The translations under genes and the position numbers were made by a program. Under the pieces are notes generated by a model, which saw only the letters and a program-made list of their open reading frames with translations, had not been told where the DNA came from and ran no database searches. Of a DNA stretch of 59,344 nucleotides, positions 6,932 to 45,853 are shown piece after piece. Where the stretch lies: contig JAJTHZ010000092.1 in NCBI GenBank assembly GCA_021299185.1, positions 1 to 59,344 on the forward strand, written 5' to 3'. The DNA is from Lysobacteraceae bacterium. Lineage in GTDB: Bacteria > Pseudomonadota > Gammaproteobacteria > Xanthomonadales > Ahniellaceae. Numbering within the stretch: position 1 is the first letter of the stretch; each line of letters starts with the position of its first letter.

Positions 6932-8142
6932 GCGAGACGCGCATCGACGTGCTGGTCGCCGGCGGCGGCGTGGTCGGTGCCGCGCTCGCGCTGGCCCTGG
7001 CGCGTGCGCGGATCGACGTCGCGCTGGTCGAGACCCGCGCCCCGCCGGCGTTCGACGCGGCCGACGTCGACCTGCGCGTGTTCGCCGTGTCGCCCGCCTC
7101 GGCGGCGCTGCTGTCGCGGATCGGCGCATGGCCGCGCATCCAGGCGCTGCGCGTGTCGCCGTATCGGCGCATGCGGGTGTGGGAACGCGGTGCCACCGAC
7201 GAGCTCGCCTTCGACGCGGGCCTGGTTGGAGCGGCCGAACTCGGCCACATCGTCGAGGACCGCGCATTGCGCGCCGGCCTGTGGGCCGCGCTCGACGCCG
7301 AGCCCGGCGTGCGCCGCGCCTGCCCCGCGCGGGTCGTGCGCTGCGAGGCGGGCGCGAGCGATGCGCGGGTCGAACTCGACGACGGCACGCGCTGGCGGCC
7401 CCGGCTGGTGGTGGCCGCCGATGGCGCGCACTCGCCGCTGCGCGACGGCGCGGGCGTGGACCTCGAATCGATGCCCTACGGCGAGCGCGCGGTGGTCGCC
7501 CACGTCCGCACCGAACGCCCGCACGAAGCCACCGCCTGGCAGCGCTTCACGCCGGCCGGCCCGCTGGCCTTCCTGCCGCTCGCCGATGGCCGGGTGAGCG
7601 TGGTGTGGTCGCTCAAGGACGCGCGCGCGACCGCGGTGCTGGCGATGGACGACGACGCCTTCACGGCCGCGCTCACCGCGGCCTCCGATGCGCGCCTCGG
7701 TCGCGTGCTGGCGACCACGCCACGCGCCGCCTTCCCGCTGCGCATGCAGCTCGCGCGGCGCTACGCCGCACCGCGTCTCGCCCTGGTCGGCGATGCCGCG
7801 CACACCGTGCATCCGCTCGCAGGCCAGGGCCTGAACCTCGGCCTGCTGGATGCCGCGGCGCTGGCCGAGGTGCTGTCGGATGCGGCCGGCGCGCGCGCGG
7901 ACCTCGGCGCGCCCGCGGTGCTGGCCCGTTACGAACACTGGCGCCGCGGCGACGTCGCCCGCGCCGCCCACGCCTTCGGCCTGCTCGACGGCCTGTTCCG
8001 CAGCGATTTCGGCCCGCTGCCGTTCCTGCGCCGCGCCGGCATGGGCCTGGTGCAGCGCATCGGCCCCTTGAAGCGCGAGTTCGCCCTGCATGCCAGCGGA
8101 TTTGCGGGGAGAGTGCCTGTGCTCGCGCGGCGGCTGGGGTGA
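6928..8142 (+). CDS. UbiH/UbiF/UbiI-family FAD-dependent ubiquinone hydroxylase
   Basis: A 404-residue paralogue of the preceding gene. It has a Rossmann motif (VAGGGVVGAALALAL), a VVAADGAHSPLR segment and the second FAD motif VGDAAHTVHPLAGQGLNLGL. In gammaproteobacteria the gene next to ubiH is usually the C5 hydroxylase UbiI (VisC); UbiF or UbiL specificity cannot be excluded from sequence. It starts at GTG 6928, four bases inside ubiH. The 3' end faces mgtE across a repeat-filled spacer. Confidence 0.87.
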   Translation: MSETRIDVLVAGGGVVGAALALALARARIDVALVETRAPPAFDAADVDLRVFAVSPASAALLSRIGAWPRIQALRVSPYRRMRVWERGATDELAFDAGLVGAAELGHIVEDRALRAGLWAALDAEPGVRRACPARVVRCEAGASDARVELDDGTRWRPRLVVAADGAHSPLRDGAGVDLESMPYGERAVVAHVRTERPHEATAWQRFTPAGPLAFLPLADGRVSVVWSLKDARATAVLAMDDDAFTAALTAASDARLGRVLATTPRAAFPLRMQLARRYAAPRLALVGDAAHTVHPLAGQGLNLGLLDAAALAEVLSDAAGARADLGAPAVLARYEHWRRGDVARAAHAFGLLDGLFRSDFGPLPFLRRAGMGLVQRIGPLKREFALHASGFAGRVPVLARRLG

Positions 8143-8170
8143 TTGCGGCGGTTGCGCTTCGGTTGGGGCG

Positions 8171-8455
8171 ATGAAGGCCCAGGGCCCAGGGCTCAGGGCC
8201 CAGAGGAATGACGTCGTGCGGTGGGTCGACGGGGGTTGCTTTTGCGTCAGGGTATAGGGCCCAGGGCCCAGAGGAATGACGTCGCGCGGCGGGTCGAGGC
8301 GTGTGAGGTTTGCCTGTGGGTATAGGGCCCAGGGTATAGAAGGAGGCTGCAGCGAAGCGGCGCTGTTCTGGGCCCTGGGCCCTGGGCCCTGGGCCCATCG
8401 ATCGAAGCGACACCGCTCGCCCCTGTACCCTGGGCCCTATACCCTGAACCCTCAA
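8171..8455. repeat. Heptanucleotide repeat array 2 with a ~35-bp internal direct repeat
   Basis: The 350-base spacer between the convergent ubiquinone hydroxylase and mgtE genes holds no gene. It carries GGGCCCA, GGGTATA and CCCTGGG heptads: a G-rich series at 8177-8203, 8250-8270 and 8318-8339, then a C-rich series at 8369-8396 and 8421-8452. Within it, a segment reading CCCAGAGGAATGACGTCG occurs twice (about 8199 and 8266), followed in both by GCGG, GGGTCGA and near-identical bases. The composition and arrangement match the arrays at the left edge and at 45.6 kb. Confidence 0.85.
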
Positions 8456-8494
8456 GCCCGATCACCGCGATAACGCCCCAACGCGCGGTCAGAA

Positions 8495-9856
8495 TCAACG
8501 AAGCAGCAACAAAGTCCCCAACCCCAGGAACGAAAAGAACCCCATCACATCAGTGACCGTGGTGACGACGATGCTGCCGGCGATCGCGGGGTCGATCTTC
8601 ATCCGCTGCAGGGTCACGGGTACCAGCACGCCGGCGAGCGCTGCGAGGAACAGGTTGATCACCATCGCGCCGCCGATCGCGGCCGAGATCAGCAGGTTGC
8701 CGAACCACAGGTAAGCGGCGGTGGCCACCACCAGTGCCCACAGCGCGCCGTTCATCAATCCCACCAGCAGTTCCTTGGACAGCAGCACGCGGATGTTGCC
8801 GCCGGCGAGTTGGCCCAGCGCGAGGCCGCGCACGGTCAGCGTCATCGCCTGCAGGCCGGCGTTGCCGCCCATGCTGGCCACGATCGGCATCAGCACCGCG
8901 AGCGCGACGATCTGCTCCAGCGTGGCCTCGAACTGGCCGATCACCGAGGCCGCGACGAAGGCGGTGAGCAGGTTCACGCCGAGCCAGATCGCGCGCCGGC
9001 GCACGGCGCGCAGGGCGGGGGTGAACAGTTCCTCGTCGGCGGACAGGCCGGCGAGGCTCTTGACCGTCTCTTCCGCTTCCTCGCGGATCACGTCGACCAC
9101 GTCGTCGACCGTGATGCGGCCGAGCAGCACGTTGTTCTCGTCGACCACCGGCGCGCTGATCAGGTCGTGGTCGGCGAAGTGCTTGGCCACGTCCTCCGAG
9201 GTGGTCTCGGCGCGGATCGGCGCCACCTCGGTGTCCATTTTCTCGTTGATCAGGGCATCGGGGTCGGCGGTGACCAGGGTCGCCAGCGGGATGCGGCCGA
9301 GGTACTGGTGGCGGCGGCTGACCACGTAAACGTGGTTGGTATTGGTCGGCAGCTCGCCGCGCATGCGCAGGTAGCGCAGCACCACGTCGACGGTGACGTC
9401 GGCGCGCACCGTGACCAGGTCGGGGTTCATCAGGCGCCCGGCGGTGTCCTCGTCGTAGGACAGCACCTGCTCCAGGCGCTCGCGGTTCTCGCGGTCCATC
9501 GACTTCAGGACCTCGTCGACCAGGTGGCCGGGCAGGTCCTCGACCAGGTCGGCGAGGTCGTCGATGTCGAGCGTGTCGGCGGCGGCGACCAGTTCCTCCG
9601 GATCCATGTCGCGGATCAGGCTCTCGCGCACCTCGTCGCCGACGTGCACCAGCACCTCGCCGTCGTCCTCGGCATCGACCAGGCCCCACACGATCAGACG
9701 CTGCTCCAGCGGCAGCGACTCCAGCAGGTCGCCGATCTCGGCCGGGGTGAGCGTGTTGACCAGCCGGCGCACGGGGCCGAGGCGCCCGGACTCGAGCGCC
9801 TGCGACAGCAGCTTCAACTGCCGCGCCGCCTGGTCGTAGCGGGTGGTCTCGGCCAT
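8495..9856 (-). CDS. mgtE: Magnesium transporter MgtE
   Basis: A 453-residue Mg2+ channel/transporter of the inner membrane. The acidic MgtE N domain (residues about 30-130, with repeated D/E-rich helices such as DIDDLADLVEDLPGH) is followed by two CBS domains (about 135-260, including VYVVSRRHQYLGRI and APVVDENNVLLGRITVDDVVDVI). The C-terminal membrane domain of about five helices has the family pore-region motif GGNAGLQAMTLTVRGLA. Full length for the family. In Xylella and Xanthomonas, as I recall, mgtE directly follows ptsI; here about 14 kb of glycan genes separate them on the same strand and in the same order. Confidence 0.95.
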   Translation of the reverse strand: MAETTRYDQAARQLKLLSQALESGRLGPVRRLVNTLTPAEIGDLLESLPLEQRLIVWGLVDAEDDGEVLVHVGDEVRESLIRDMDPEELVAAADTLDIDDLADLVEDLPGHLVDEVLKSMDRENRERLEQVLSYDEDTAGRLMNPDLVTVRADVTVDVVLRYLRMRGELPTNTNHVYVVSRRHQYLGRIPLATLVTADPDALINEKMDTEVAPIRAETTSEDVAKHFADHDLISAPVVDENNVLLGRITVDDVVDVIREEAEETVKSLAGLSADEELFTPALRAVRRRAIWLGVNLLTAFVAASVIGQFEATLEQIVALAVLMPIVASMGGNAGLQAMTLTVRGLALGQLAGGNIRVLLSKELLVGLMNGALWALVVATAAYLWFGNLLISAAIGGAMVINLFLAALAGVLVPVTLQRMKIDPAIAGSIVVTTVTDVMGFFSFLGLGTLLLLR

Positions 9857-10025
9857 CGCGGGGGTCCGGTCGGTGGCGCGCCGCGGGGCGCGCCGGCAGG
9901 GACGCGCATTATCCCCGAGGCCCCCGCTGGCGGCTACCTCGCTCCACCCTGTCGGCGCCGCGCCGCGATCTGCTAGCGTTCGCCCGCCTGCCGCCTGCCG
10001 CCGCGCGACGAAGGACGCTGCACCG

Positions 10026-11699
10026 ATGTTCCAGGACGAGTCCCGCGCGAGGCCAGCATGGCTCGCGCTGCTGCTTGCGCTGACGTCGGCGGTCGTGTTC
10101 GCGGTGTTCGCAAGCTACCGAATCGACTCGCCCGGCCTGTACGCCGACGAGGTGCTGTTCGTTCCGGCCGCCCTCGAAGCGGCCGGCGAGTGCGGTATCG
10201 AGGCGCCCGTGTCGGTGCAGGCCGGCGCCTGCTTTCCGCTATACCTCAGTCCGCCTTATCTTGGCGCGCTGAAGGCATGGCTGTACGCACCGTTGTTTGC
10301 GGCGTTCGAGCCGACTCCGGCGCGCGTGCGATGGCCGATGCTGATACTCGCCGCAGTGACCGTCGCCGGATGGGTGCTGATGTGCCGGCGTTGGCTGGCG
10401 CCGCCGGCGCTCGTTGCGCTCGGCGCTCTGCTGGCGCTTGACCCTGCGTTTGCGATCCACGCCCGCATCGACTGGGGGCCGGTCGTCATCGCGGGATTTC
10501 TGAAGCTTGTCCTGCTCGCCTGCTGCCTGGGCTGGGTTCGAAGCGGCTCGCGCGCGCTGCTGCTGGCCAGCTTCGCGCTCTCGGCGGTCGGTCTCTACGA
10601 CAAGCTCAGTTTCGCCTGGACCCTCGCCGCCTTGGCGGCGGCGATCACGTTGGTGCACTGGCGCGAAGTGCAGCGCCACGTCGCCGCTTGGCGGGTGCGC
10701 GACTGGGTCGCGGTGGCGGCGGGAACGGCATCGGTTGCGATTCCCTTCCTGCTCGCGTTTCGGGTGGCGAGCGGTCTGGATTTGCCGGGCGCAGACGCGT
10801 CGGCATCGTTCGCGGAGCGCTTGCTGCGTATCGTAGGCCTGGCCGATGTCGCACTCGGCGGCGATTTTGCCCTGCCGTGGATCGCGGAGCAGCCGACATG
10901 GGCCAGCCGATGGCCCTTCCTGCTGCTCGCCGCCGGCTGGTGCGCGGCAACGGGACTCGCCTTGGCGCGACCTTGGCGCGACCCGTCGCTGCGGGCGCGC
11001 TGGCAAGCCTTGGCCGTGGTCGCGGTGCTTTCGGCAGTGCTGTTCGCCTGCATGGTGGCGACGCGGCAGGTCGGCGGGGCGCACCACTTGATCGTGCTCT
11101 GGCCCTTGCACTGGGTGCTGTGGGCGCTGCTCGTGGACCTCGCCTCGAGACTGGCCCGGCGACATCGCTCGCCGCGGCTCGTCGCTGCGGTATCGCTGGC
11201 CGCTGTCGCCGGCCTGGCGGCGCTCGTGCAGCCCTTCGCGCAACGACAGATGGAACTGCGTGCGCTGTGGCGTGGCGAGCATGGATTCAGCGCGCGCTTC
11301 GACCCTGGAACGATCGGGCTCGCGCGTCTGCTCGCAACACGGCAGCCGCACAGCGTGATCGTCACGGACTGGGGGCTGCATGCGCCGCTGGTGACACTGT
11401 CGCCGCCGACGGTCCGGGAGCGGCTGATCGATGCGTGGCCCACGTTCAACGAGCCACCTGTTGCAGGTTCCGTAGCGGCTGCATGGGCCGATGCCCATCT
11501 GCGGGACGGGCCGGTGGTGATCGTTTCCTTCGCCGCAGGACGCGCCGTGATGCCGGCTACCGAGAGCCATCGCGACGCAAATTTGGCCGCATGGGGCCTG
11601 TGCATCGTGCGCATTGAAACGATCGTCGATGCGAACGGCAGGCCACTCTACGACCTGCGCACCGCGGTCGCGGGCCGGCCGCTGTGCACCGGTCCTTGA
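10026..11699 (+). CDS. GT-C-like multi-spanning membrane glycosyltransferase (ArnT/PMT-like)
   Basis: A 557-residue integral membrane protein with roughly eleven hydrophobic helices and a soluble C-terminal part from about residue 400. The first extracytoplasmic loop carries SPGLYADEVLF; the Asp-Glu pair at this place is the hallmark of GT-C transferases that use polyprenyl-linked sugars (GT39/GT83 style). I see no more specific signature, so donor and acceptor are unknown. ATG 10026 was chosen because the preceding open frame overlaps the divergent mgtE start and is not membrane-like. It is the left edge of the accessory glycan region, divergent from mgtE. Its stop abuts gene debris on the opposite strand. 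Confidence 0.75.
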   Translation: MFQDESRARPAWLALLLALTSAVVFAVFASYRIDSPGLYADEVLFVPAALEAAGECGIEAPVSVQAGACFPLYLSPPYLGALKAWLYAPLFAAFEPTPARVRWPMLILAAVTVAGWVLMCRRWLAPPALVALGALLALDPAFAIHARIDWGPVVIAGFLKLVLLACCLGWVRSGSRALLLASFALSAVGLYDKLSFAWTLAALAAAITLVHWREVQRHVAAWRVRDWVAVAAGTASVAIPFLLAFRVASGLDLPGADASASFAERLLRIVGLADVALGGDFALPWIAEQPTWASRWPFLLLAAGWCAATGLALARPWRDPSLRARWQALAVVAVLSAVLFACMVATRQVGGAHHLIVLWPLHWVLWALLVDLASRLARRHRSPRLVAAVSLAAVAGLAALVQPFAQRQMELRALWRGEHGFSARFDPGTIGLARLLATRQPHSVIVTDWGLHAPLVTLSPPTVRERLIDAWPTFNEPPVAGSVAAAWADAHLRDGPVVIVSFAAGRAVMPATESHRDANLAAWGLCIVRIETIVDANGRPLYDLRTAVAGRPLCTGP

Positions 11700-12120
11700 T
11701 CCGCAGCGCCCGACGGACCGGGGCTTGGCTCGAGCAGACAGACCCGGGCCTGCGGCTCGCCCTCGGGCGGCAGGATGTCGACGAGGGGCGTGCGCGACGC
11801 AGCATCGACCCTTCGTCGCAGTCCATCCAGCACCGGCGTCGACTTGATTTCGTTTTGCACCGTACCAGTAGCACGTGTGGCCCTCGACGCGCTGCGATCC
11901 GGGCGGCGACGTAGTGGGGTACCCACAGCAGCAGATTGAACCAGGTCTGCTCCTGTGCGGCGGCGAGGTCGACGCCATCGCGGCCATCAAGCCAAGCCCA
12001 AGCGATGTAGTCGTGGTAGTTGCGAAGGTCCCTATGCGTCCGGCCCGGACACGGCCGCCCATGTCGCGCAGGCGATCGGCGCAAGCAGCGTCGCTGAAAC
12101 GGGACGGCGGCCCGGTGCAT
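11700..12120 (-). pseudogene. Remnant of a GT-C-like membrane protein gene (N-terminal fragment, frameshifted)
   Basis: On the minus strand, 12030 down to about 11899 encodes DLRNYHDYIAWAWLDG, then DLAAAQEQTWFN, then WVPHYVAARIA. This matches the N-terminal loop of the intact protein at 18875-20392 (DLRNYHLYVAWAWLED, DLAAAQAQSWFN, WIPHFVAF). Just upstream, in another frame, lies a hydrophobic stretch ending SGPDA followed by a stop, the counterpart of FGPDANW in the intact copy, so there is an indel at 12031-12034. Homology stops near 11899. The rest of the spacer to 11700 is open in one minus frame (ILPPEGEPQARVCLLEP) and may be a C-terminal remnant, which I cannot confirm. The 3' part of the original gene is gone. 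Confidence 0.7.
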
Positions 12121-12994: not shown

Positions 12995-13398
12995 TTGGCG
13001 ACGTCCGGCGCGCCTCGCGGTCCACGCGCGCCCGCGACGCGAGTGACCGGTCGCGCCGCGCGATCAGCAACCGCAGCTCGTCGATTTCGCCGGCGCTGAA
13101 TCGAGCGGCGGCTGATGTGGCGCTTGTCGCTGGGCAACGCGATGCGTGAGAAGCCGTGCCACGAAACCTCGTTCGTCTCGAATACCACGCAGCGATCGAA
13201 CAGCGGCGTGATGAGCTGCATCTCGTTGTCCGGCGCTCGGTGATCGCGGTGGATCTCGAGCGATCCACCCCAGGCGTCTTCCCGCTCGGGGTTCAGGTAC
13301 ACGACCAGGTTCAGGCGCCGGTGGCTGCGGTCGATCGGGTGGCGGTTGAAGTCGATGTGCGGGTCGAGGCCCTGGTCGTTGCGATTCTCGTGCGTGCG
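12995..13398 (-). pseudogene. 2OG-Fe(II) oxygenase remnant with internal deletion
   Basis: Minus-strand translation gives THENRNDQGLDPHIDFNRHP, then WGGSLEIHRD, FETNEVSWHGFSRI and KRHISRRSI. This closely matches the intact oxygenase at 21474-22415 (THENRDGQDLDPHIDFNRHP, WHGFSRI, KRHLSRRSI). The N-terminal 40 percent is missing. After SRRSI about 100 bases are deleted and the frame changes, with the match resuming as EIDELRLLIARRD (intact: DVETLRGLLARRD) until it runs out beside the methyltransferase stop. The HxD and distal His codons survive, but no intact protein can be made. Confidence 0.85.
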
Positions 13399-13800: not shown

Positions 13801-13880
13801 CGCCGGATGCTCCGGGGGGCTTGCTGCGCAGGCCGGTGCCCGCGGCAAGGATGCGCGACCCGACCCACCCGGATTACCGA

Positions 13881-14825
13881 ATGCGCCAAACCGTGCTCTC
13901 CGTGGTCTCGCCGGTGTACGGCTGTGCCGGTTGCCTCGAGACGTTGTGCGAACGCATCGCAGCGGCACTGGCGCCGCTCGGGATCGCACACGAGGTCGTG
14001 CTGGTCTGCGACGCGAGCCCCGACGACGCCTGGCCGCGGATCGTCGAGATCGCGGCCCGCGATCCCCGTGTGCGCGGACTGCGGCTGAGCCGCAACTTCG
14101 GCCAGCATCCGGCGATCAGCGCCGGGCTGGCGGCGGCGCGTGGCGACTGGGTGGTGGTGCTCGACTGCGACCTGCAGGACCCGCCCGAGGCGATTCCCGC
14201 GCTGTACGCGCGCGCCCTGGAGGGCGTGGACGCGGTCGTCGCGCAACGCAAGGACCGCAAGGACGGTTGGGCGAAGCGCACGCTGTCGCGCGCCTTCTAC
14301 GCCACACTGTCGTGGCTCACCGGCGACCGCCACGATCCGGAGACCGCGAACTTCGGCATCTACAGCCGGCGGCTCGTCGAGCAGATCCTGCGCCTGCCGG
14401 AAAGCGGCCGTTTCTTCCCGCTGCTGGTGCGCTGGACCGGGCTGCCCCGCACCACGCTGGCGGTCGCGCATGCCGGGCGCGCCGACGGCCGCAGCGGCTA
14501 CACACTGCGCGGCCTGCTGCGCCTCGCGCTGGAAGTGATCATGTCGCACTCCGACCGGCCGCTGCGCCTGGTGGCCAAGCTCGGCGTGCTGTTCGGGCTG
14601 GCCTCGTTCGGGTTCGCGCTGCTGAGCGTGTACCGCTGGTTCGTCGGCGACATCGCGGTCGCCGGCTTCACCAGCATCATCGCTTCGATCTGGCTGGTCG
14701 GCGGCGCGACCATCGCCTGCCTCGGGGTGGTCGGCCTGTATGTCGGCCGGATCTTCACCGAAAGCAAGCGGCGTCCCCACTACGTGGTGGTCGAAAGCAC
14801 CGACGCCGGGGACCCGCTGCGGTGA
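13881..14825 (+). CDS. GT2 family polyprenyl-phosphate glycosyltransferase (ArnC/GtrB/DPM1-like)
   Basis: A 314-residue enzyme predicted to transfer a sugar from a nucleotide donor to undecaprenyl phosphate on the cytoplasmic face. The GT-A domain begins SVVSPVYG and has the metal-binding LDCDLQDPPEA (DXD type) near residue 90, preceded by LSRNFGQHPAISAGLAAARG, all standard for the DPM1/ArnC/GtrB group. Two C-terminal membrane helices follow (around 230-255 and 265-295), ending YVGRIFTESKRRPHYVV, the usual ending. ATG 13881 gives MRQTVLSVVSPVYG; ATG 13851 would add ten polar residues. The stop overlaps the GTG of the next gene (GTGA). First gene of a five-gene overlapping operon. Confidence 0.88.
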   Translation: MRQTVLSVVSPVYGCAGCLETLCERIAAALAPLGIAHEVVLVCDASPDDAWPRIVEIAARDPRVRGLRLSRNFGQHPAISAGLAAARGDWVVVLDCDLQDPPEAIPALYARALEGVDAVVAQRKDRKDGWAKRTLSRAFYATLSWLTGDRHDPETANFGIYSRRLVEQILRLPESGRFFPLLVRWTGLPRTTLAVAHAGRADGRSGYTLRGLLRLALEVIMSHSDRPLRLVAKLGVLFGLASFGFALLSVYRWFVGDIAVAGFTSIIASIWLVGGATIACLGVVGLYVGRIFTESKRRPHYVVVESTDAGDPLR

Positions 14826-15814
14826 GCGACCTGCTGATCGTGGCGGACGCCGAGTCGCGCCGGTTCGGACTGTGCGTCGCGCGCGGCCGCGCCACCGCCG
14901 CGGATGCGCCGACGCTGGTCGACGAGATGCTCGCCCTGGCGGTGGACGTCGCGATCGTGCGGGTGGATGCGACGGACGATGCGGCGGCGCAGGCTTTCGC
15001 GGCCCACGGGCTGTCGCCCCTGCACGCCGATTGCCTCGTGACCTGGGGCACGGACCTCGGTGCGGGCGCGCCGACGCTGGCGCTCGCGCCTGGCGGCGCG
15101 CTGCGCGACGCCCAGCCCGACGACGCGGCGGCGATCGAGGGCCTGGTGGCCGCGGTGTTCGGCGACTATCCGAATCACTATCGCGCGAATCCGTGGTTCG
15201 ATCCCGCCGGCGCCGCGGCCGGCTACGCCGAATGGGCGCTGGCGCACATTGGCCGTGCGGAGCGGACCTGCTGGGTGCACGAGGTCGACGGTCGCATCGT
15301 CGGCCTGGCCTGCGCCGCGCTCGACTCCGCCGGCGCGGTCGCGACCGGCAACCTGCACGGCGTCCACCCGGCGTTCGCACGACGCGGCATCTATCGCGCG
15401 ATGATCCAGGCCACGCTCGCCCACTACGCGGAGCACGGCGCGCGGTCGTTCTCGATCGCGACCCAGGCCGGCAACCTTGCGGTGCAGCGCGCCTGGGCGG
15501 GGCTCGGGCTGCTGCCTCGGCGCTGCGAGCAGACCTTCCACCTGTCGACCCTGTTCGGGCGCGCGCTCGCCGCGCCTGCGGTGGGCGTCGCGCCGGATGA
15601 CGCCGCCCGTGTCCTTCTCGAAGGCCACGCGCGGGCCTGCGGCGGCGCGGCGCTGGCCAACGCCCGCATCCACCTGCGCGCCGACGCCGGGCGAGCGACG
15701 ACCCTGCGCAGCGCGCGCGTCGCGCGCCGCGACGGGCGATCCGCCGCGACCACGCTGGCGCAGGATGGCGCCGGCCGCGTGATCGGCTGGATGGCCAGCG
15801 ACCCGATTCCCTGA
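14822..15814 (+). CDS. GNAT-family N-acyltransferase (WecD-like) with C-terminal extension
   Basis: A 330-residue protein. Residues 1-80 resemble the N-terminal part of WecD/RffC-type TDP-amino-sugar acetyltransferases. The central GNAT fold (about 95-245) has the acyl-CoA-binding HPAFARRGIYRAMI and the later NLAVQRAWAGLGL. About 90 residues then follow that I do not recognise. WecD proteins acetylate the 4-amino group of TDP-4-amino-4,6-dideoxygalactose, and the DegT aminotransferase two genes downstream would make that substrate, which supports the role. It starts at GTG 14822, overlapping the GT2 stop by four bases. The acyl group (acetyl or longer) is not predictable. Confidence 0.75.
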   Translation: MSDLLIVADAESRRFGLCVARGRATAADAPTLVDEMLALAVDVAIVRVDATDDAAAQAFAAHGLSPLHADCLVTWGTDLGAGAPTLALAPGGALRDAQPDDAAAIEGLVAAVFGDYPNHYRANPWFDPAGAAAGYAEWALAHIGRAERTCWVHEVDGRIVGLACAALDSAGAVATGNLHGVHPAFARRGIYRAMIQATLAHYAEHGARSFSIATQAGNLAVQRAWAGLGLLPRRCEQTFHLSTLFGRALAAPAVGVAPDDAARVLLEGHARACGGAALANARIHLRADAGRATTLRSARVARRDGRSAATTLAQDGAGRVIGWMASDPIP

Positions 15815-15827
15815 ACGGAAACCCCCC

Positions 15828-16190
15828 ATGGGCTATGTCTACGTCCTGCTGACCATCCTGCTCACGACCTACGGCCAGCTCGCGATCAAGTGGCAGGTCA
15901 CGCTTGCCGGGCCGCTGCCGGGCACGCGCGCCGCGCAGGTCGACTACTTCATCGCGCTGCTGCTCAACCCCTGGGTGGTCAGTGCGATCGCGGCGGCATT
16001 CGCCGCCATGCTGGCCTGGATGGCGGCGATGACCCGCTTCGAGCTGAGCCAGGCCTATCCCTTCATGGCCGCCAACTTCGTGCTGGTGGGGGTCGGTTCG
16101 GTGTGGCTGTTCGGCGAGCCGCTGACGATGAACAAGGTGCTTGGCGTGGCGCTGATCTGCGCCGGCCTCTTCGTGGTGGCCCGCGGATGA
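15828..16190 (+). CDS. SMR/EamA-like small membrane protein, likely lipid-linked sugar flippase subunit
   Basis: A 120-residue, four-helix membrane protein of the small-multidrug-resistance/ArnE-ArnF type. It has the LLTTYGQLAIKWQV first helix, FELSQAYPFMAANFVLVGVGSVWLFGE region and a final GVALICAGLFVVARG helix. This size and fold fit ArnE/ArnF or GtrA-like proteins that move undecaprenyl-phosphate-linked sugars across the inner membrane. Its position between the GT2/GNAT pair and the aminotransferase supports that. ACGGAA precedes ATG 15828, and its stop overlaps the next ATG (ATGA). It probably works as a dimer or with a partner encoded elsewhere. Drug efflux is less likely in this context. 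Confidence 0.75.
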   Translation: MGYVYVLLTILLTTYGQLAIKWQVTLAGPLPGTRAAQVDYFIALLLNPWVVSAIAAAFAAMLAWMAAMTRFELSQAYPFMAANFVLVGVGSVWLFGEPLTMNKVLGVALICAGLFVVARG

Positions 16191-17317
16191 GCGCGCCGAT
16201 CCCCTTCAACCGGCCCTACATGACCGGCCGCGAGCTGTGGCTGATCGCGCAGGCCCACGCGCGCGGCCACCTGTCGGGCGACGGCGAGTTCACCCGCCGC
16301 TGCCACGCGTGGCTGGAAGCGCACACCGGCTGCCGCAAGGCGCTGCTCACGCACTCGTGCACCGCCGCGCTGGAGATGTCGGCGCTGCTGCTCGACCTCG
16401 CGCCGGGCGACGAGGTCATCATGCCCTCGTACACCTTCGTGTCCACCGCCAACGCCTTCGTGCTGCGCGGCGCGGTGCCGGTGTTCGTCGACATCCGCGG
16501 CGACACCATGAACCTCGACGAACGCCTGGTCGAAGCCGCGATCACGCCGCGCACCAAGGCGATCTGCGTGGTGCACTACGCCGGCGTGGCCTGCGCGATG
16601 GACGTGATCCTGGACATCGCCGCGCGGCACGGGCTGGCGGTGGTCGAGGACGCGGCACAGGGCGTGGGCGCGACCTGGCGCGGGCGCCCGCTGGGCGGCA
16701 TCGGCACCTTCGGCGCACTGAGCTTCCACGAGACCAAGAACATCATCAGCGGCGAGGGCGGCGCCCTGCTGGTCAACGACGCGGCCCACATCGAGCGCGC
16801 CGAGGTGATCCGCGAGAAGGGCACCAACCGCAGCCGGTTCTTCCGCGGCGAGGTCGACAAGTACACCTGGGTGGACGTCGGCTCCTCGTTCCTGCCGGGC
16901 GAGATCGTCGCCGCCTTCCTGTGCGCGCAGATGGAGGAGGTGCAGGCCATCACCGAGCGCCGCCTCGCGCTGTGGAACCGCTACCACGAGGCCCTGGCCG
17001 ACGCCGAGGCGCGCGGCCGCGTGCGCCGCCCGGTGATCTCGGTCGACTGCACGCACAACGCGCACATGTACTACGTCCTGTTCCGCACGCTGGCCGAGCG
17101 CACGGCGGCGATCGCCGCGCTGCAGGCGCAGGGCATCCGCCCGGTGTTCCACTACGTGCCGCTGCATTCCTCGCCCGCCGGCCGGCGCTTCGGCCGCGTG
17201 CACGGCGCGATGGACCACACCGATCGCGCGGGCGATACCCTCCTGCGCCTGCCGCTGTGGTTGCCGGACCTCGACATCGAGCGCGTGGTCGAGGGACTGC
17301 TCGGGCATCTCGCATGA
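16187..17317 (+). CDS. DegT/DnrJ/EryC1 aminotransferase, TDP-4-amino-4,6-dideoxygalactose transaminase (WecE/RffA-like)
   Basis: A 376-residue PLP-dependent sugar aminotransferase. It begins IPFNRPYMTGRELW, the WecE-type start. It carries THSCTAALEMSALLLD, EDAAQGVGATWRG and the Schiff-base lysine in SFHETKNIISGEGGAL, and ends with the usual FHYVPLHSS and LRLPLW segments. WecE converts TDP-4-keto-6-deoxy-D-glucose plus glutamate to TDP-4-amino-4,6-dideoxy-D-galactose. No rmlA or rmlB is in the window, so the keto-sugar must come from elsewhere in the genome. Start and stop both overlap the neighbours by ATGA, giving tight translational coupling. Confidence 0.9.
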   Translation: MSAPIPFNRPYMTGRELWLIAQAHARGHLSGDGEFTRRCHAWLEAHTGCRKALLTHSCTAALEMSALLLDLAPGDEVIMPSYTFVSTANAFVLRGAVPVFVDIRGDTMNLDERLVEAAITPRTKAICVVHYAGVACAMDVILDIAARHGLAVVEDAAQGVGATWRGRPLGGIGTFGALSFHETKNIISGEGGALLVNDAAHIERAEVIREKGTNRSRFFRGEVDKYTWVDVGSSFLPGEIVAAFLCAQMEEVQAITERRLALWNRYHEALADAEARGRVRRPVISVDCTHNAHMYYVLFRTLAERTAAIAALQAQGIRPVFHYVPLHSSPAGRRFGRVHGAMDHTDRAGDTLLRLPLWLPDLDIERVVEGLLGHLA

Positions 17318-18849
17318 CGCAGTCCGCCGCCCCTCCGGCGGCGCGGCGCGCGCGCTGGCCACTGCCGGTGGTCGGCCTGCTGCTCGCGATCCTCGGCTTC
17401 GCCGCCATGCTGGACGCGTGGCGGCTCACCGCGCGGACCGCCAATCCGGTCATCATGGCGGACGCGTGGTACTTCATCGACGTGTTCGTCGAACCGCAGG
17501 TTGAGGGGCACCTCGCCTGGCGCGACTTCTTCGCCAAGCGCGAGGCGACCGACCATTCGCAGCCGCTGCACAAGGCGTGGCTGGCGGCCAACGTGCGCTG
17601 GTTCGGGCTCGATTTCCGCCTCGATGCCCTGGTCGCCTTCGGCGGCCTCGTGCTGTGCACGCTGGGCCTGCTCGCGGTGGGTCTCGCCGCGCGGCGCGGC
17701 CGGCCGGGCATCGGTGATGTCGTCGTGCTGGCCGCCATCCCGCTGCTGATGTTCTCGCTCAACTCGCACGAGATCTACGACTGGCCGCTGGTGACGCAGT
17801 ACTACCTCGGGCTGCCCTTCGTGCTGTTGCTGTTCGCCGCCTGCGCCCGCGACGCACCGGGCGGCGCGACGAGCGTGTTCGCCGCCGCGCTGGCCGCGCT
17901 GGTGGTGCTCGACGGCGGCGGCGTGCTGGCCGCGATCGCCGCCTGCGCGGGGCTCCTGCTGCGCAGCGCGGCGCGCCGGCAGTGGCGGGTCGGCGGGGTG
18001 CGGGTCGGCGCGATCGTCGCCGCGTTCGCCGCCTACAAGCTGGCGTGGGCGCTGCTGATGCCACCGCTGCCGCCGTCGGCGGCGGGCGGCCTTTTCGAGG
18101 CACTGCGCGGCTTGCCATCCGACTTCGCCTCGTGGTGGTCGATGGTCGCGATCGCCGCCACGTCCTCGCTGGTGCACATCGACCATCTGCGCGACTGGGC
18201 GCACGCGCCGGAAGCCGCGCTGCGCTGGGTGTCCGTCATCGGCGCGGCGATGCTGGTGCTGCACGCCGCGTTCTGGGTCGCGGCGCGACGCACGCTGCGC
18301 GAGGGCGTGGCGGGGGCTTTCGCCTGCATGCTGATGCTGTACGTCTATGGCATGTGGGCCGGCATCGTGCTCGGTCGGGTGCCGGTGTTCGGGGTCGATT
18401 ACCTTTGGCAGGCGCGCTACGTCGCGTTCTTCCAACTGGCCATCGTCGCGCTGGCCTTGCAGTGGCTGGCCTCGGCGCCGCCGGCGGGTGGCGACGGTGC
18501 GCCGCGCCGCGGTCGGCTGGCGCTGGCGTCCGGCGTCGTGCTCACGCTGCTGCTCGGCGCGCTGCAGGTGCCGATCGCGGCGCGCACCTGGGCGCGCCCG
18601 CAGTACCTGCCGGACCACTACGCGCGCAGCGCGAGCGCGTTGTACTGCATCGCCGCCCATCCCGGACGCGCCGACCTCGTCTGCCCGCCCGAGCATGCGG
18701 TGTGCGGATGGTCGCCGGAGGTGCGCGACCGCCTCGTCGCGGTGCTGGTCCGGCACCAGTTGAACGCGTTTTCCCCGGCGTTCCAGTCGCGGCATGGGCT
18801 GCATCCGGACCCGGTCGTCGATCGCGGCTGCGTCCCGTCGGACGGTTGA
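17314..18849 (+). CDS. Multi-spanning membrane protein, putative GT-C transferase of the amino-sugar operon
   Basis: A 511-residue inner-membrane protein with about eleven or twelve hydrophobic helices and a short extracytoplasmic C-terminus containing three cysteines (YCIAAHPG, DLVCPPEHAVCGW). The first long loop has VIMADAWYFIDVFVEP and KREATDHSQPLHK, acidic positions of the kind used by GT-C enzymes. I do not recognise a named family. As the last gene of the operon, after the aminotransferase (ATGA overlap), GT2, acyltransferase and flippase, the natural role is transfer of the lipid-linked amino-sugar to a periplasmic acceptor, comparable to ArnT or the serotype-specific Gtr. This role is inferred from context. 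Confidence 0.65.
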   Translation: MTQSAAPPAARRARWPLPVVGLLLAILGFAAMLDAWRLTARTANPVIMADAWYFIDVFVEPQVEGHLAWRDFFAKREATDHSQPLHKAWLAANVRWFGLDFRLDALVAFGGLVLCTLGLLAVGLAARRGRPGIGDVVVLAAIPLLMFSLNSHEIYDWPLVTQYYLGLPFVLLLFAACARDAPGGATSVFAAALAALVVLDGGGVLAAIAACAGLLLRSAARRQWRVGGVRVGAIVAAFAAYKLAWALLMPPLPPSAAGGLFEALRGLPSDFASWWSMVAIAATSSLVHIDHLRDWAHAPEAALRWVSVIGAAMLVLHAAFWVAARRTLREGVAGAFACMLMLYVYGMWAGIVLGRVPVFGVDYLWQARYVAFFQLAIVALALQWLASAPPAGGDGAPRRGRLALASGVVLTLLLGALQVPIAARTWARPQYLPDHYARSASALYCIAAHPGRADLVCPPEHAVCGWSPEVRDRLVAVLVRHQLNAFSPAFQSRHGLHPDPVVDRGCVPSDG

Positions 18850-18874: not shown

Positions 18875-20392
18875 TCAGCGCCGCGCGAGTTCGCACAGCC
18901 ACAGCGGCGGTTCACCTGCGGGCAGCATTGGCGTCGCCACCTGGGTGCAGCGATCCGGCACCCGGGCCAGCCGGTACGCGGCGAGCGCCGGATCGGTCTG
19001 CGCCGGGTCATCGGCCTGCAGCAGAACGACCATCGGGCCATCGTGCGCCGCAAGCCGTGCCGCCGCCCGCCGTTGCAGTCCGGGCGCCGGACGCGATGCG
19101 TCCCACAGGTTCGATTCGATGCGCACCGCGGATGCCAGTCCCTGCGCGAACGGCAGCACGAAGGACGTCGGACGGTCCCCGGTCATCACCACCAGGCTGC
19201 CCGGCGTCAGCGCCACCTGCACCGGGGCGCCGGCGGGCCAGTCGCGGGTTGCGCGTTCGTGGTTCGGCGGGTTGGTCGACAGCACGCAAAGCACGATCGC
19301 GGCGAGCGCCAGCCGATGGCCCCCGCTGGCCGCCAGCAGCATCAGCGGCGCGGCGAGTTCCAGCGCGACGAGGTAGCGGTGGTAGCCGAACAGCGGCAGC
19401 CACAGCAGGTAGGCGACCGCGAACCCGGTGGAAAGCGCGGCCAGCAGGCGCCGCGGGCCCGGCGCGATGGCGCGCCAGCGCCAGGCGAGCACGCCGATCG
19501 CGACCGCCAGCAGCAGCAGGCGCGCGTCGCGGATCCGGTAGTCCGAGGTCGCGCGCCAGTCGAGGAGCGGTGCCAGCGGGCGTGACAGCGCCTCCGTGGC
19601 CGAGCCGGGCACGAAGCGCAGGTCGCGTGCGGCGCCTTGCGTGATCCAGTCGCCGCCGAACAGCGCGTCGAACTGCGGAAATACCGGGTTGCCCCAGTCG
19701 CGCCACAGTGTCAACGCCCAGGGGCCGGCGAGCAGCACGAAGGCGGCCAGCGCACCGGCGCCGCACCAGGCGGTGAGCTGCCATGCCGCGCGTCGATCGG
19801 CCGCGAGCAGCGGCAGGCCGAAGCACAGCCCGAGCGCCACCGGCGCATGCGAGAGCTTGAGCGCCGCCACCGCGCCGAGCAGCGCCCCTGCGGCCAGCGC
19901 GCGGCGCGGATCGACACGCTCGCGCGCCGCCGCATCGTGCGCGAGCAGCACGCCGCCGAGCGCGATGCCGGCCAGCAGGGCATCGCCGTAGCTCGCACCG
20001 AGCTGGCCGAGGAAGGTGGCGGCCGTGAGGCCACCCGCGACCGCGAGCATCCTCGCCGCGAGCGCGCAATCCGGCGCGAGGCGGGCGGCGAGGGCGAGCA
20101 ATGGCGCTGCGCACAGACCCTGCAAGGCCCCGATGCAGGCCGCCAGCGCCGCACCACCGAGGTGCTGGAAGGCGACGAAGTGGGGAATCCAGGGCAGTGG
20201 ATTGAACCAGCTTTGCGCCTGCGCCGCGGCGAGGTCCGTTGTCGCGCGGTCCTCCAGCCAAGCCCAGGCGACATAGAGGTGGTAGTTGCGCAGGTCCCAG
20301 TTGGCGTCGGGCCCGAACGCCAGCGCGGCGAGGCCGCACCCCGCGCAAGCCAGCGACACACCGATCCAGTTGACGCCTGCTTCGGATCGCAT
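18875..20392 (-). CDS. Multi-spanning membrane protein, GT-C-like (intact paralogue of the 11.9-kb remnant)
   Basis: A 505-residue inner-membrane protein with about eleven helices. The first periplasmic loop reads GPDANWDLRNYHLYVAWAWL and continues DLAAAQAQSWFNPLPWIPH, a pattern seen in many uncharacterised GT-C-like proteins of polysaccharide loci. The C-terminal hundred residues are soluble and contain RCTQVATPML and WLCELARR. The frame allows a TTG at 20401; I prefer ATG 20392 (MRSEAGVNWIG). It converges with the five-gene operon, 25 bases away. A frameshifted fragment of a close relative lies at 11.9-12.1 kb. The 216 bases upstream of it, up to the methyltransferase stop, show no gene. 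Substrate unknown. Confidence 0.65.
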   Translation of the reverse strand: MRSEAGVNWIGVSLACAGCGLAALAFGPDANWDLRNYHLYVAWAWLEDRATTDLAAAQAQSWFNPLPWIPHFVAFQHLGGAALAACIGALQGLCAAPLLALAARLAPDCALAARMLAVAGGLTAATFLGQLGASYGDALLAGIALGGVLLAHDAAARERVDPRRALAAGALLGAVAALKLSHAPVALGLCFGLPLLAADRRAAWQLTAWCGAGALAAFVLLAGPWALTLWRDWGNPVFPQFDALFGGDWITQGAARDLRFVPGSATEALSRPLAPLLDWRATSDYRIRDARLLLLAVAIGVLAWRWRAIAPGPRRLLAALSTGFAVAYLLWLPLFGYHRYLVALELAAPLMLLAASGGHRLALAAIVLCVLSTNPPNHERATRDWPAGAPVQVALTPGSLVVMTGDRPTSFVLPFAQGLASAVRIESNLWDASRPAPGLQRRAAARLAAHDGPMVVLLQADDPAQTDPALAAYRLARVPDRCTQVATPMLPAGEPPLWLCELARR

Positions 20393-21473: not shown

Positions 21474-22415
21474 TCAGGTCGGTCGCCGGCGCGCCAGCGC
21501 GAGCAGTCGGATTGCGCCGTGCCGGACTCGTCCCAGCCAGCCGGCGTACAAGGCTTCGTTGGCCCGGTCCAGCAGGGACGTCAGTCGTTCGACATCGCGG
21601 TACAGCCGCTGGTTGTGTTGATCGCGTCGCGCCAGCAGTCCACGCAGGGTCTCCACGTCTTCGTCGGTCAGCACGTGCCCCGCCGTGATCTGCGGCGGCA
21701 GCGGGCGATCGACGTAGATCGTCGAATGGGTTTCGGCGAGCTCGTCCGCCGGGCGCTCGCGCGTATAGAAGTACAGCGCGATCGAGCGCCGGCTGAGGTG
21801 GCGCTTGTCCGGCGGCAGGTTGATGCGCGAGAAGCCATGCCAGGAGATCTCGTTGGTCTCGAAGATCACGCAGCGGTTGAACAACGGGGTCACCAGCCTG
21901 ACGTCGTTGTCCGGCGCGCGCGGGTCGCGGTGGAGTTCCAGCGAGCCGCCCCAGGCGTCGTCCCACTCGGGGTTGAGGTAGATGATCAGGTTCAGGCGCC
22001 GGTGGCTGCGATCATGCGGGTGGCGGTTGAAGTCGATGTGCGGGTCGAGGTCCTGGCCGTCGCGGTTCTCGTGCGTGCCGCCGCCGAAATACCACGGGTC
22101 GTACTGCAGGTCCTCGATGCCGGTGATGCGACCGACGAGATCGAGGAATTCGCGCGATTTCACCAGGTCGTCGAGCGCGGCATAGGCCGGCCCCAGTCCG
22201 CGGATGCGTTCCACCACCGCCTTGTTGCCGATCTCGCCAGCCTCGTTGCGCGCGTACTTCGGGTCGAAGGGCGGAAACCCGCTCAGCAGCGCTTCGGCGA
22301 ACCGGTGTTCGAGGAATCCGTCGATGATCACGTGCCGGAACGGTTTGCCGGCCGCGAAGCGGCCGGCGAGTTCGTCGACATCGCGACGGACGATGGAAGC
22401 GATCGGGTCGGACAT
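21474..22415 (-). CDS. 2OG-Fe(II) oxygenase (prolyl-4-hydroxylase-like)
   Basis: A 313-residue non-haem iron dioxygenase of the 2OG-FeII_Oxy/P4Hc fold. The iron ligands are visible in DPHIDFNRHP (HxD, about residue 125) and in ISWHGFSRI (distal His, about 190), with a following Arg (RRSIALYFYTRE) that would bind 2-oxoglutarate. The last 50 residues form a helical tail with a heptad-like pattern. The start MSDPIASIVRRD was chosen over in-frame codons upstream because those lack a ribosome-binding site and add low-complexity residues. It lies 13 bases from the following methyltransferase. In glycan clusters such enzymes hydroxylate sugars, lipids or modified residues. A deleted copy exists at 13.0-13.4 kb. 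Confidence 0.82.
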   Translation of the reverse strand: MSDPIASIVRRDVDELAGRFAAGKPFRHVIIDGFLEHRFAEALLSGFPPFDPKYARNEAGEIGNKAVVERIRGLGPAYAALDDLVKSREFLDLVGRITGIEDLQYDPWYFGGGTHENRDGQDLDPHIDFNRHPHDRSHRRLNLIIYLNPEWDDAWGGSLELHRDPRAPDNDVRLVTPLFNRCVIFETNEISWHGFSRINLPPDKRHLSRRSIALYFYTRERPADELAETHSTIYVDRPLPPQITAGHVLTDEDVETLRGLLARRDQHNQRLYRDVERLTSLLDRANEALYAGWLGRVRHGAIRLLALARRRPT

Positions 22416-33976: not shown

Positions 33977-35734
33977 ATGAAGGCAAGCAAGGCGATCCTC
34001 GCCGCCGCGATCGCGGCCGCGCTTCCGGGTGTGCTGCAGGCCGCGGAACTCCGCACGGCCAGCCAACCGATCAAGGGCCAGTACATCGTCGTCCTCAAGC
34101 GCGATTTCGTGCGCGTGCCGGGCGAGGTCTCACGCAATCCCGACGTCACCACGATGGCGGCCGAGATGGCCAATGCCTACGGGCTGCAGGTCAGCATGGC
34201 GTACGAACACGCCTTGCAGGGCTTCGTCGCCACCGTGGGCGACAAGCAACTGCAGAACCTGCTCGCCGACCATCGCGTCGACTTCATCGAGGAAGACGGC
34301 CTGGTGCACGCATCGGCGACGCAGTCCAGCGCGACCTGGGGCCTCGACCGCTCCGACCAGCGCGACCTGCCGCTCAACACGACCTACGTCTACGACACCA
34401 CGGCGAGCAACGTCCGCGCCTACATCCTCGACACCGGCATCCTCGCCAACCACGTCGACTTCGGCGGCCGCGTCGGCTCCGGCTAAACCGCGATCAGCGA
34501 CGGCCGCGGCAGCAGCGACTGCAACGGCCACGGCACGCACGTCGCGGGCACGGTGGGCGGCAGCACCTGGGGCGTCGCCAAGGGCGTGACCCTGATCCCG
34601 GTGCGCGTGCTCGGCTGCAACGGTTCGGGCACCAACTCGGGCGTGATCGCCGGCATCGACTGGGTCGCGGCGAACCACGTCAAGCCCGCGGTGGCCAACA
34701 TGAGCCTCGGCGGCGGCGCCTCGGCGGCGACCGACACCGCGGTGACCAACCTGGTCAACGCCGGCGTGTTCACCGCGGTGGCGGCGGGCAACGACAACGC
34801 CAACGCCTGCAACTACTCGCCGGCGCGCGCCGCGGCCGCGTTCACGGTCGGCTCGACCACCAACACGGACGCCCGCTCGTCGTTCTCCAACTTCGGCACC
34901 TGCCTCGACATCTTCGCGCCGGGTTCGTCGATCACCTCCGCGTGGTTCACCAGCAGCACCGCCACCAACACGATCAGCGGCACCTCGATGGCGTCGCCGC
35001 ACGTGGCGGGCGTGGGCGCGATCTTCCTCGCCAACAACCCGACGGCCACGCCTTCGGCGGTCGGCACCGCGCTGATCAACAACTCGACGCCGAACAAGGT
35101 GACGGGTGCCCAGACCGGCTCGCCCAACCGCCTGCTGTATTCGCGCTTCGGCGGCACCACGCCGGTCGACAACCCGCCGACGGCGAACTTCACGTTCACC
35201 TGCACTGGCTTGTCCTGCTCCTTCAACGGCTCGGGCTCCACCGACGACAACGGCATCTCGTCGTATGCGTGGACCTTCGGCGACGGCAGCACGGGCAGCG
35301 GCGCCACCGCCAGCAAGACCTACGCGGCGGCCGGCACCTACAGCGTCGTGCTGACCGTGCGTGACACCGCCAACCAGGCCGGCACCCGCACGCAGTCGGT
35401 GACGGTGACCGCGGGCAGCGGCGCGCCGTGCACCAACTGCACGCTGTACAGCGGCACGCTGGCTTCCGGCGCGCAGGTCTTCCAGCCGAACGGCAGCTGG
35501 TACTACTCGTCGGTGTCCGGCACGCACGCCGGCTACCTGCGCGGGCCGGCCGGCGCGGACTTCGACCTGTACCTGCAGAAGTGGAACGGCGCCTCGTGGG
35601 CCAACGTGGCCAGCGGCACCACCACCAGCACCAACGAGAACGTGACCTACAGCGGCACCGCCGGGTACTACCGCTGGCGCGTGTTCGCTTACAGCTGCAG
35701 CGGCGCCTACCAGCTGTACATCGCCCGCCCGTAA
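33977..35734 (+). pseudogene. Secreted S8 subtilase (proteinase-K-like) interrupted by an in-frame TAA
   Basis: The frame encodes a signal peptide (AAAIAAALPGVLQAA) and an I9 propeptide (GQYIVVLKRDF, LQNLLADHRVDFIEEDG). Catalytic Asp152 (AYILDTGI) follows, then a TAA stop as codon 170 (34484-34486). The same frame continues without other damage: His motif [10 protein letters not shown], oxyanion Asn (AAGNDNA), Ser motif [11 protein letters not shown], one PKD domain ([11 protein letters not shown] to TVTAG) and a C-terminal PPC-like domain starting CTNCTLYSG. In the paralogue just downstream the matching codon is TAC (Tyr170), so a single C-to-A change explains the stop. Without it the product would be 585 residues. 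Either a very recent nonsense mutation, a sequencing error or read-through; the catalytic half alone has no start signal I trust. Confidence 0.85.
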
Positions 35735-45620: not shown

Positions 45621-45815
45621 CAGGGCCCAGGTCACAGGGCCCAGGGCCCAGCCGAAGGATTGGATGCTCGCGGTTGGGCGTGGCGCCTCGGTGACCGCTG
45701 CCTGAAGCGCCAGCAGGCGACCGCATCGCGACAGGGTGCCGTCCCTATACCCTTTGCCCTATACCCTCTGCCCCCACACCGCGTACTGGGCCCTGAGCCC
45801 TGGGCCCTGGGCCCT
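45621..45815. repeat. Heptanucleotide repeat array 3 between kdsD and kdsC
   Basis: G-rich units (GGGCCCA type) at 45622-45650 are followed by a unique stretch, then four exact heptads at 45743-45770 (CCCTATA, CCCTTTG, CCCTATA, CCCTCTG), then TACTGGGCCCTGAGCCCTGG with further GGGCCCT units to 45815. That last segment is nearly identical to 133-156 in array 1. The order G-rich, spacer, C-rich is the same as in the other two arrays. No gene is seen in the 236-base gap. Confidence 0.85.
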
Positions 45816-45853
45816 TCGAACGCAACCCCCCAAAGCCCCTCCAGGCCGCCCGC

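Follow-up and report, generated by a model that had tools for sequence, protein, structure and literature searches.

In a 59,344-nucleotide stretch of DNA from a Lysobacteraceae bacterium (GenBank assembly GCA_021299185.1, contig JAJTHZ010000092.1, positions 1 to 59,344; referred to as the window), five co-directional genes on the + strand (13881-18849) probably encode a three-component periplasmic glycosylation system together with the enzymes that make its sugar donor. The operon would act as an exchangeable cassette that decorates a periplasmic acceptor with N-acylated 4-amino-4,6-dideoxygalactose, a reading built on the gene identities and on the recurring association of these genes in other genomes, from which we infer the substrates, the order of the steps and the acceptor. 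In the proposed scheme, RmlA and RmlB, both encoded elsewhere, would supply thymidine diphosphate (TDP)-4-keto-6-deoxyglucose, which would be aminated by WecE to TDP-4-amino-4,6-dideoxygalactose (TDP-Fuc4N) and then N-acylated by a WecD-like GNAT protein. A GT2 protein resembling GtrB and ArnC would move the acylated sugar onto undecaprenyl phosphate, a small multidrug-resistance-type (SMR) protein would flip the lipid-linked sugar across the membrane and a GT-C enzyme would transfer it to the periplasmic acceptor. Of the three components that define such a system, the synthase (GT2) and the flippase (SMR) are recognized by homology, with the GT-C enzyme recognized by its predicted model.

The initial annotation, made from the letters of the window, had described a five-gene operon with overlapping or very close junctions, and open reading frame (ORF) calls bear this out. 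Three of the junctions are 4-base overlaps and the fourth is a 13-base gap, and as the same genes recur jointly in other genomes the arrangement goes beyond chance. A scan for promoters and terminators returned no promoter-like site on the operon strand and no terminator-like site. The first gene has alternative in-frame starts at 13851 (ATG) and 13821 (TTG). Pfam and NCBIfam support four of the five gene names originally proposed, while the fifth, that of the GT-C enzyme, is supported via a structure model. The operon contig, C200 in our numbering, is one of 270 making up a genome of 4.84 Mb.

Table 1. Genes of the operon with their assigned or proposed functions and the basis of each assignment
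Product and proposed function	Position	Strand	Basis
GtrB/ArnC-type GT2 glycosyltransferase, membrane helices at the C terminus; putative synthase of undecaprenyl-phosphate acyl-aminosugar	13881-14825	+	PF00535, structure relatives
GNAT, WecD-like N-acyltransferase with about 85 extra C-terminal residues	14822-15814	+	GTG start; PF00583, predicted fold
SMR/EamA-type small four-helix protein; proposed flippase of the lipid-linked sugar	15828-16190	+	ArnF/ArnE similarity
WecE (RffA) sugar 4-aminotransferase	16187-17317	+	NCBIfam WecE equivalog
GT-C fold membrane glycosyltransferase; proposed transfer to a periplasmic acceptor	17314-18849	+	AlphaFold model

The aminotransferase, already named WecE-like in the initial annotation, passes the NCBIfam WecE equivalog (588.5 bits, cut-off 375) as well as TIGR02379 (579.2 bits, cut-off 434.85). 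It aligns with the solved WecE structure 4piw at E 7.8e-137, including the HETKN motif, the lysine of which is residue 184, and its predicted reaction is the conversion of TDP-4-keto-6-deoxyglucose to TDP-Fuc4N.

The GT2 protein matches PF00535 and its nearest solved structures are GtrB (5ekp, E 2.6e-51) and ArnC (9hwj, E 1.6e-47), in keeping with the ArnC/GtrB type first assigned to it. Its DxD motif reads DCD, with hydrophobic stretches at the C-terminal side. Against NCBIfam the best score was to PgfS, a protein-glycosylation enzyme, at 185 bits, below the equivalog cut-off; likewise the curated ArnC model was not passed (174.4 bits, cut-off 529). The SMR protein, proposed from the outset as a four-helix flippase like ArnE or ArnF, does resemble both, though under their curated cut-offs (ArnF 50.7 bits, cut-off 99; ArnE 36.6 bits, cut-off 92), and scores just under the Pfam cut-off for EamA.

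The GNAT protein matches PF00583 and scores 40.8 and 35.1 bits against two curated WecD models, passing neither (cut-offs 219 and 195.1). Despite these scores the fold predicted for it is that of WecD, as had been suggested: the AlphaFold model has a mean predicted local distance difference test score (pLDDT) of 85.2 overall, falling to 53-73 in the tail, and a Foldseek search of the PDB with this model ranked WecD (2fs5) first, with a template-modelling score of 0.84 on the target.

The fifth protein matches no Pfam or NCBIfam model at E 0.01, and a profile of 12 members of its family finds no match among PDB sequences at E 1. Its AlphaFold model is confident (pLDDT 88.4, predicted template-modelling score 0.90). 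This model was compared with known structures using VIA-align, which makes a second pass over the top 1000 chains of Foldseek, with 50 rows shown. ArnT came first (Z 12.9, root-mean-square deviation 5.0 over 340 residues, identity 13%), followed by AftB (Z 12.7), with Pmt4, Dpy19 and oligosaccharyltransferases near behind. Rows 1-46 of the 50 are all GT-C enzymes or PIG-U-type subunits, which we take to be GT-C-like (Z 12.9-7.6), and the first other fold, FtsW, stands at row 47 with Z 7.2. Although Z values below about 13 can reflect an arrangement common in helical proteins, the GT-C fold is assigned because the top of the list is all of one kind. Foldseek alone gave a weaker result, with ArnT best at E 2.1e-3 and unrelated transporters interspersed. 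The 12 relatives all share Asp50, Trp52, Asp71, Asp80 and His81, which lie in the segment following the first helix, in line with what is known of active sites in the GT-C fold. The structure model thus argues for the GT-C-like membrane enzyme of the initial annotation, and the protein is treated here as a predicted GT-C enzyme.

The GT2, SMR and GT-C proteins resemble ArnC, ArnE/F and ArnT, respectively, and the sugar might be destined for lipid A or the inner core of lipopolysaccharide (LPS) in a modification of Arn type. This is quite improbable. ArnA and ArnD were searched for among the operon proteins and matched none of the five (E 0.01), the GT-C protein shares 13% identity with ArnT, and two related loci in other genomes, L065 and L163, contain ABC-transporter genes (by eye), as for O antigen.

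For the precursor, RmlA (501 bits, cut-off 360.65) and RmlB (485.4 bits, cut-off 365.1) are found in the same genome on contigs C264 and C68, so that the operon depends on outside genes for TDP-4-keto-6-deoxyglucose. The operon had been proposed to be self-contained, which was too strong and is rejected. The remainder of that pathway, from the amino sugar through acylation, lipid loading and flipping to transfer, is supported by the protein families, the folds and the recurring neighbourhoods.

The neighbourhood of WecE was surveyed in two sets of genomes. Among Lysobacterales, WecE at E 1e-130 or better occurs in 49 of 398 genomes, that of the window included, and 47 of these 49 loci were examined (leaving out G520 and G555); the second set, of named genomes, consists of the best 80 of at least 581 loci. 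Together these are 127 loci, which stand for at least 126 distinct ones since L097 (Dyella sp. AtDHG13) and L172 are one locus. Final counts were taken from raw ORFs because the gene caller had missed wecE in L148. In the 47 Lysobacterales loci GT2 occurs in 44, SMR in 36, GtrA in 2 and GT2 with either SMR or GtrA in 37, with the GNAT family of the window in 14, a second GNAT family in 2, WbqC in 19 and the GT-C family of the window in 12. The corresponding numbers for the best-80 named set are 62, 21, 30 and 46, with 6 for the GNAT family of the window, 11 for the second GNAT family, 43 for WbqC and none for the GT-C family. Six control loci from the genome of the window gave no match to GT2, SMR, GtrA, GNAT or GT-C. 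One of these, L032 on contig C250, carries at about 7604-10866 another DegT-type aminotransferase (35% identity to WecE), whose frame overlaps a WbqC-like frame. In plasmids, a relative of WecE (E 1e-60) was found in 45 of 72,556 records.

The initial annotation had proposed a comparative search for the same gene order. The order GT2, GNAT, SMR, WecE on one strand recurs in 14 of the 127 loci, 12 of them among the 47 from Lysobacterales and two in the best-80 named set. Relatives of the operon retain WecE, in most cases together with the GT2 and frequently with a flippase, while their acyl genes and membrane transferase vary, and conservation of the GT-C gene is far below that of the other operon genes. 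In L024 (10329-11020) and L121 (5148-5841) two SMR frames lie side by side, and some systems may use an ArnE/ArnF-like pair rather than one protein. In enterobacteria, WecE and WecD are enzymes of common-antigen synthesis, and the genes of the operon might be unlinked neighbours, with GT2, SMR and GT-C serving another sugar and WecE and GNAT feeding a glycan assembled in the cytoplasm. The WecE relatives in L063 and L132, which lie beside flagellar genes (fliD-like, by eye) and have no GT2 or SMR match, agree with this. The 4-base overlaps and the repeated four-gene order speak against such an arrangement, which we regard as very improbable, slightly more so than lipid A modification.

Under the reading of the operon as a single glycosylation cassette, the acyl genes of the relatives would set the chemistry of the cargo. 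In L065 the GNAT protein (7792-8943) has a MaoC domain behind the acyltransferase (Pfam E 2.1e-17) and, from alignment, a MaoC-like domain lies behind the GNAT in L162 (7288-8412) and L148 (12102-13232), fusions that suggest a 3-hydroxyacyl group. A profile of four shorter GNAT tails (those of the window, L143, L153 and L150) gave a 94.7% probability against MaoC, compared with a maximum of 0.5% in 30 shuffles; L143 gave no MaoC match in the Pfam search. A MaoC remnant in the GNAT of the window itself was considered and is not shown, as its tail alone scores 0.3%. Other loci carry other acyl genes: an AMP-binding enzyme, LuxE, LuxC and a short-chain dehydrogenase in L023, KAS III and a carrier protein in L024, and WbqC in 62 of the 127 loci. 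The pattern is that of a fixed core with varying acyl genes, the chemistry of which is predicted from sequence. Tentatively, and with slightly less than even confidence, these loci may represent a large undescribed class of WecE-based periplasmic glycosylation cassettes, in which an exchangeable acyl module (GNAT, a GNAT-MaoC fusion, WbqC, LuxE/LuxC with an acyl-CoA synthetase, or KAS III with a carrier protein) would N-acylate the 4-amino sugar before it is loaded onto undecaprenyl phosphate and flipped, and an exchangeable membrane transferase would pass it to an acceptor that differs between strains, O antigen or pilin. If true, such cassettes would generate surface diversity combinatorially and, provided that the acyl modules have been read correctly, the gene neighbourhood would allow their chemistry to be predicted.

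The genomic site of the relatives bears on the acceptor. EtfA or EtfB is encoded in 23 of the 47 Lysobacterales loci, and one study places the variable LPS locus of xanthomonads in a cluster between metB and etfA (PMC2238763). In L163, the only other locus with the exact five-gene order, the five genes lie between metB, ABC-transporter-like genes and etfA (names read by eye). In other Xanthomonas strains that end is reported to encode a membrane protein together with a prenyltransferase, an oxidoreductase and a dehydrogenase, all at the etfA side of the cluster (PMC2238763), and a second paper notes Xanthomonas examples of pentofuranose systems (PMC11127046); the etfA end would then be a slot for exchangeable cassettes. 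A Lysobacterales-like locus beside etfBA also occurs on a contig labelled as cyanobacterial (L065, Tolypothrix campylonemoides VB511288 scaffold_022), which is probably a contaminant of the Tolypothrix assembly.

At five of the 47 loci (L025-L028 and L177) WecE lies instead near pilin-locus genes, with pilD and coaE in all five and pilB, pilC and pilin in four; single PilB-like matches in L160, L170 and L171 were not counted. In L177 (935-13089) the GT2, GNAT, SMR and WecE genes, in the usual order, are flanked by pilB on one side and two pilin genes on the other; a 479-residue membrane protein is encoded next to the pilins, and the arrangement suggests pilin glycosylation there. O antigen as the sole acceptor was dropped on account of these five loci. 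The GT-C enzyme of the window might itself glycosylate a secreted protein, for instance a pilin, with the acylated sugar, much as protein O-mannosyltransferases do: its structural matches include Pmt1/2 and Pmt4, PgfS is the best NCBIfam score of the GT2, and the genome has two pilin genes. The pilin locus of this genome, on contig C219 (two pilins, pilB, pilC, pilD and coaE), shows by eye no amino-sugar or GT2 gene, however, and no pilin gene was seen by eye near the operon. Furthermore, the GT-C family of the window is found at none of the five pilin-side loci, L026 and L027 lack a GT2 of the window type, and the etfBA site accounts for 23 of the 47 loci. Protein glycosylation by the operon is thus considered unlikely.

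For the cassette reading as a whole, the usual acceptor in the Lysobacterales relatives is probably the O-antigen chain, with pilin serving in a minority of cases. In its own genome the operon lies at neither an etf nor a pilin site, and the acceptor there could be O antigen, another polysaccharide, the LPS core or protein. Three Wzy_C matches occur in this genome, on C63, C257 and C82, and their surroundings resemble, by eye, an exopolysaccharide locus, an LPS-core-like group and an isolated gene, respectively.

Several observations weigh against the interpretation put forward here, of which the acceptor is the weakest point. The five pilin-side loci, L177 with its identical four-gene order among them, count against a single kind of acceptor, and 16 of the 47 Lysobacterales loci, that of the window included, have neither etfBA nor pil genes. 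The etfA of this genome lies on contig C67 (15 kb) near an ETF-oxidoreductase-like gene, with no LPS genes there in rough calls by eye, and a search of the genome for the Wzt_C domain was negative. The GT-C family has a limited distribution: it occurs in 12 of the 47 Lysobacterales loci, in none of the best-80 named set and, at E 1e-15, in 2 of the 369 genomes searched across the class, one being that of the window; the exact five-gene order with this GT-C is likewise confined to 2 of the 127 loci (the window and L163). The roles of all five proteins are predicted ones, and the GT2, GNAT and SMR proteins all fall under the curated cut-offs of the families they resemble. The census models derive partly from the loci that were counted, which biases the counts upward, and the control set is limited to six loci from a single genome, with L032 matching the WbqC and WecE models, the latter through its distant aminotransferase.

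Elsewhere in the window, decayed fragments to the left of the operon (11905-12047 and 13093-13397) match, in the same order and strand, 20171-20315 and 21776-22078 to its right, which are parts of a large membrane-protein gene (78% DNA identity) and of a 2OG-Fe(II) oxygenase gene (83%), as if a flanking block had been duplicated with the operon between the copies. The neighbouring genes at 34215-35380 and 36191-37356, secreted-protease-like by eye, are a tandem duplication with 77% DNA identity over about 1.2 kb. A short repeat occurs in both orientations at 77-218, 8173-8446 and 45743-45819, with a similar-looking reading frame on contig C250 (L032).

If systems of this kind are widespread and encode the synthesis of their own N-acylated deoxyamino sugar, they would account for the origin of the acylated 4-amino-sugar side branches seen on bacterial glycans, and glycoengineering would gain from them both donors and a family of GT-C enzymes. 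The operon had been thought not to be described in this form. The general form is described, PMC11127046 defining three-component systems by their polyprenyl-phosphate sugar synthase, flippase and GT-C enzyme, with auxiliary genes setting the sugar, and giving glucose, galactose and pentofuranoses as their cargo. An SMR flippase is not unusual in itself, as the same paper names one for mycobacterial arabinan (PMC11127046). The claim may still hold for the WecE and N-acyl version, in that a search of open-licence papers, itself weak evidence, found no WecE-based three-component system with an N-acylated 4-amino sugar as cargo.

Compared with the Gtr-type systems and the pentofuranose systems of PMC11127046, the operon likewise has synthase, flippase and GT-C enzyme in one locus with cargo-setting auxiliary genes, and many of its relatives lie at the LPS locus. 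It differs in its predicted donor, an N-acylated 4-amino-4,6-dideoxyhexose made via WecE and the GNAT, and in a GT-C family that has no Pfam or NCBIfam model. The Arn pathway, too, combines a GT2, a small four-helix flippase and a GT-C transferase to handle a 4-amino sugar carried by undecaprenyl phosphate, whereas the operon has no ArnA or ArnD match, WecE rather than ArnB, a single SMR gene and a predicted cargo that keeps its acyl group. With the wecE/wecD genes of enterobacterial common antigen it has in common a WecE orthologue and a GNAT of WecD fold, whereas none of its five proteins matches the polymer genes of that antigen and its predicted carrier is a monophosphate lipid bearing a single sugar. 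The membrane-protein module at the etfA end in Xanthomonas occupies the same genomic position as many relatives of the operon, while containing a prenyltransferase, an oxidoreductase and a dehydrogenase (PMC2238763); judged from PMC11127046, that module would be a pentofuranose three-component system. The scheme is thus of the known three-component type, with a cargo and a GT-C family that differ from those found in the open-licence literature.

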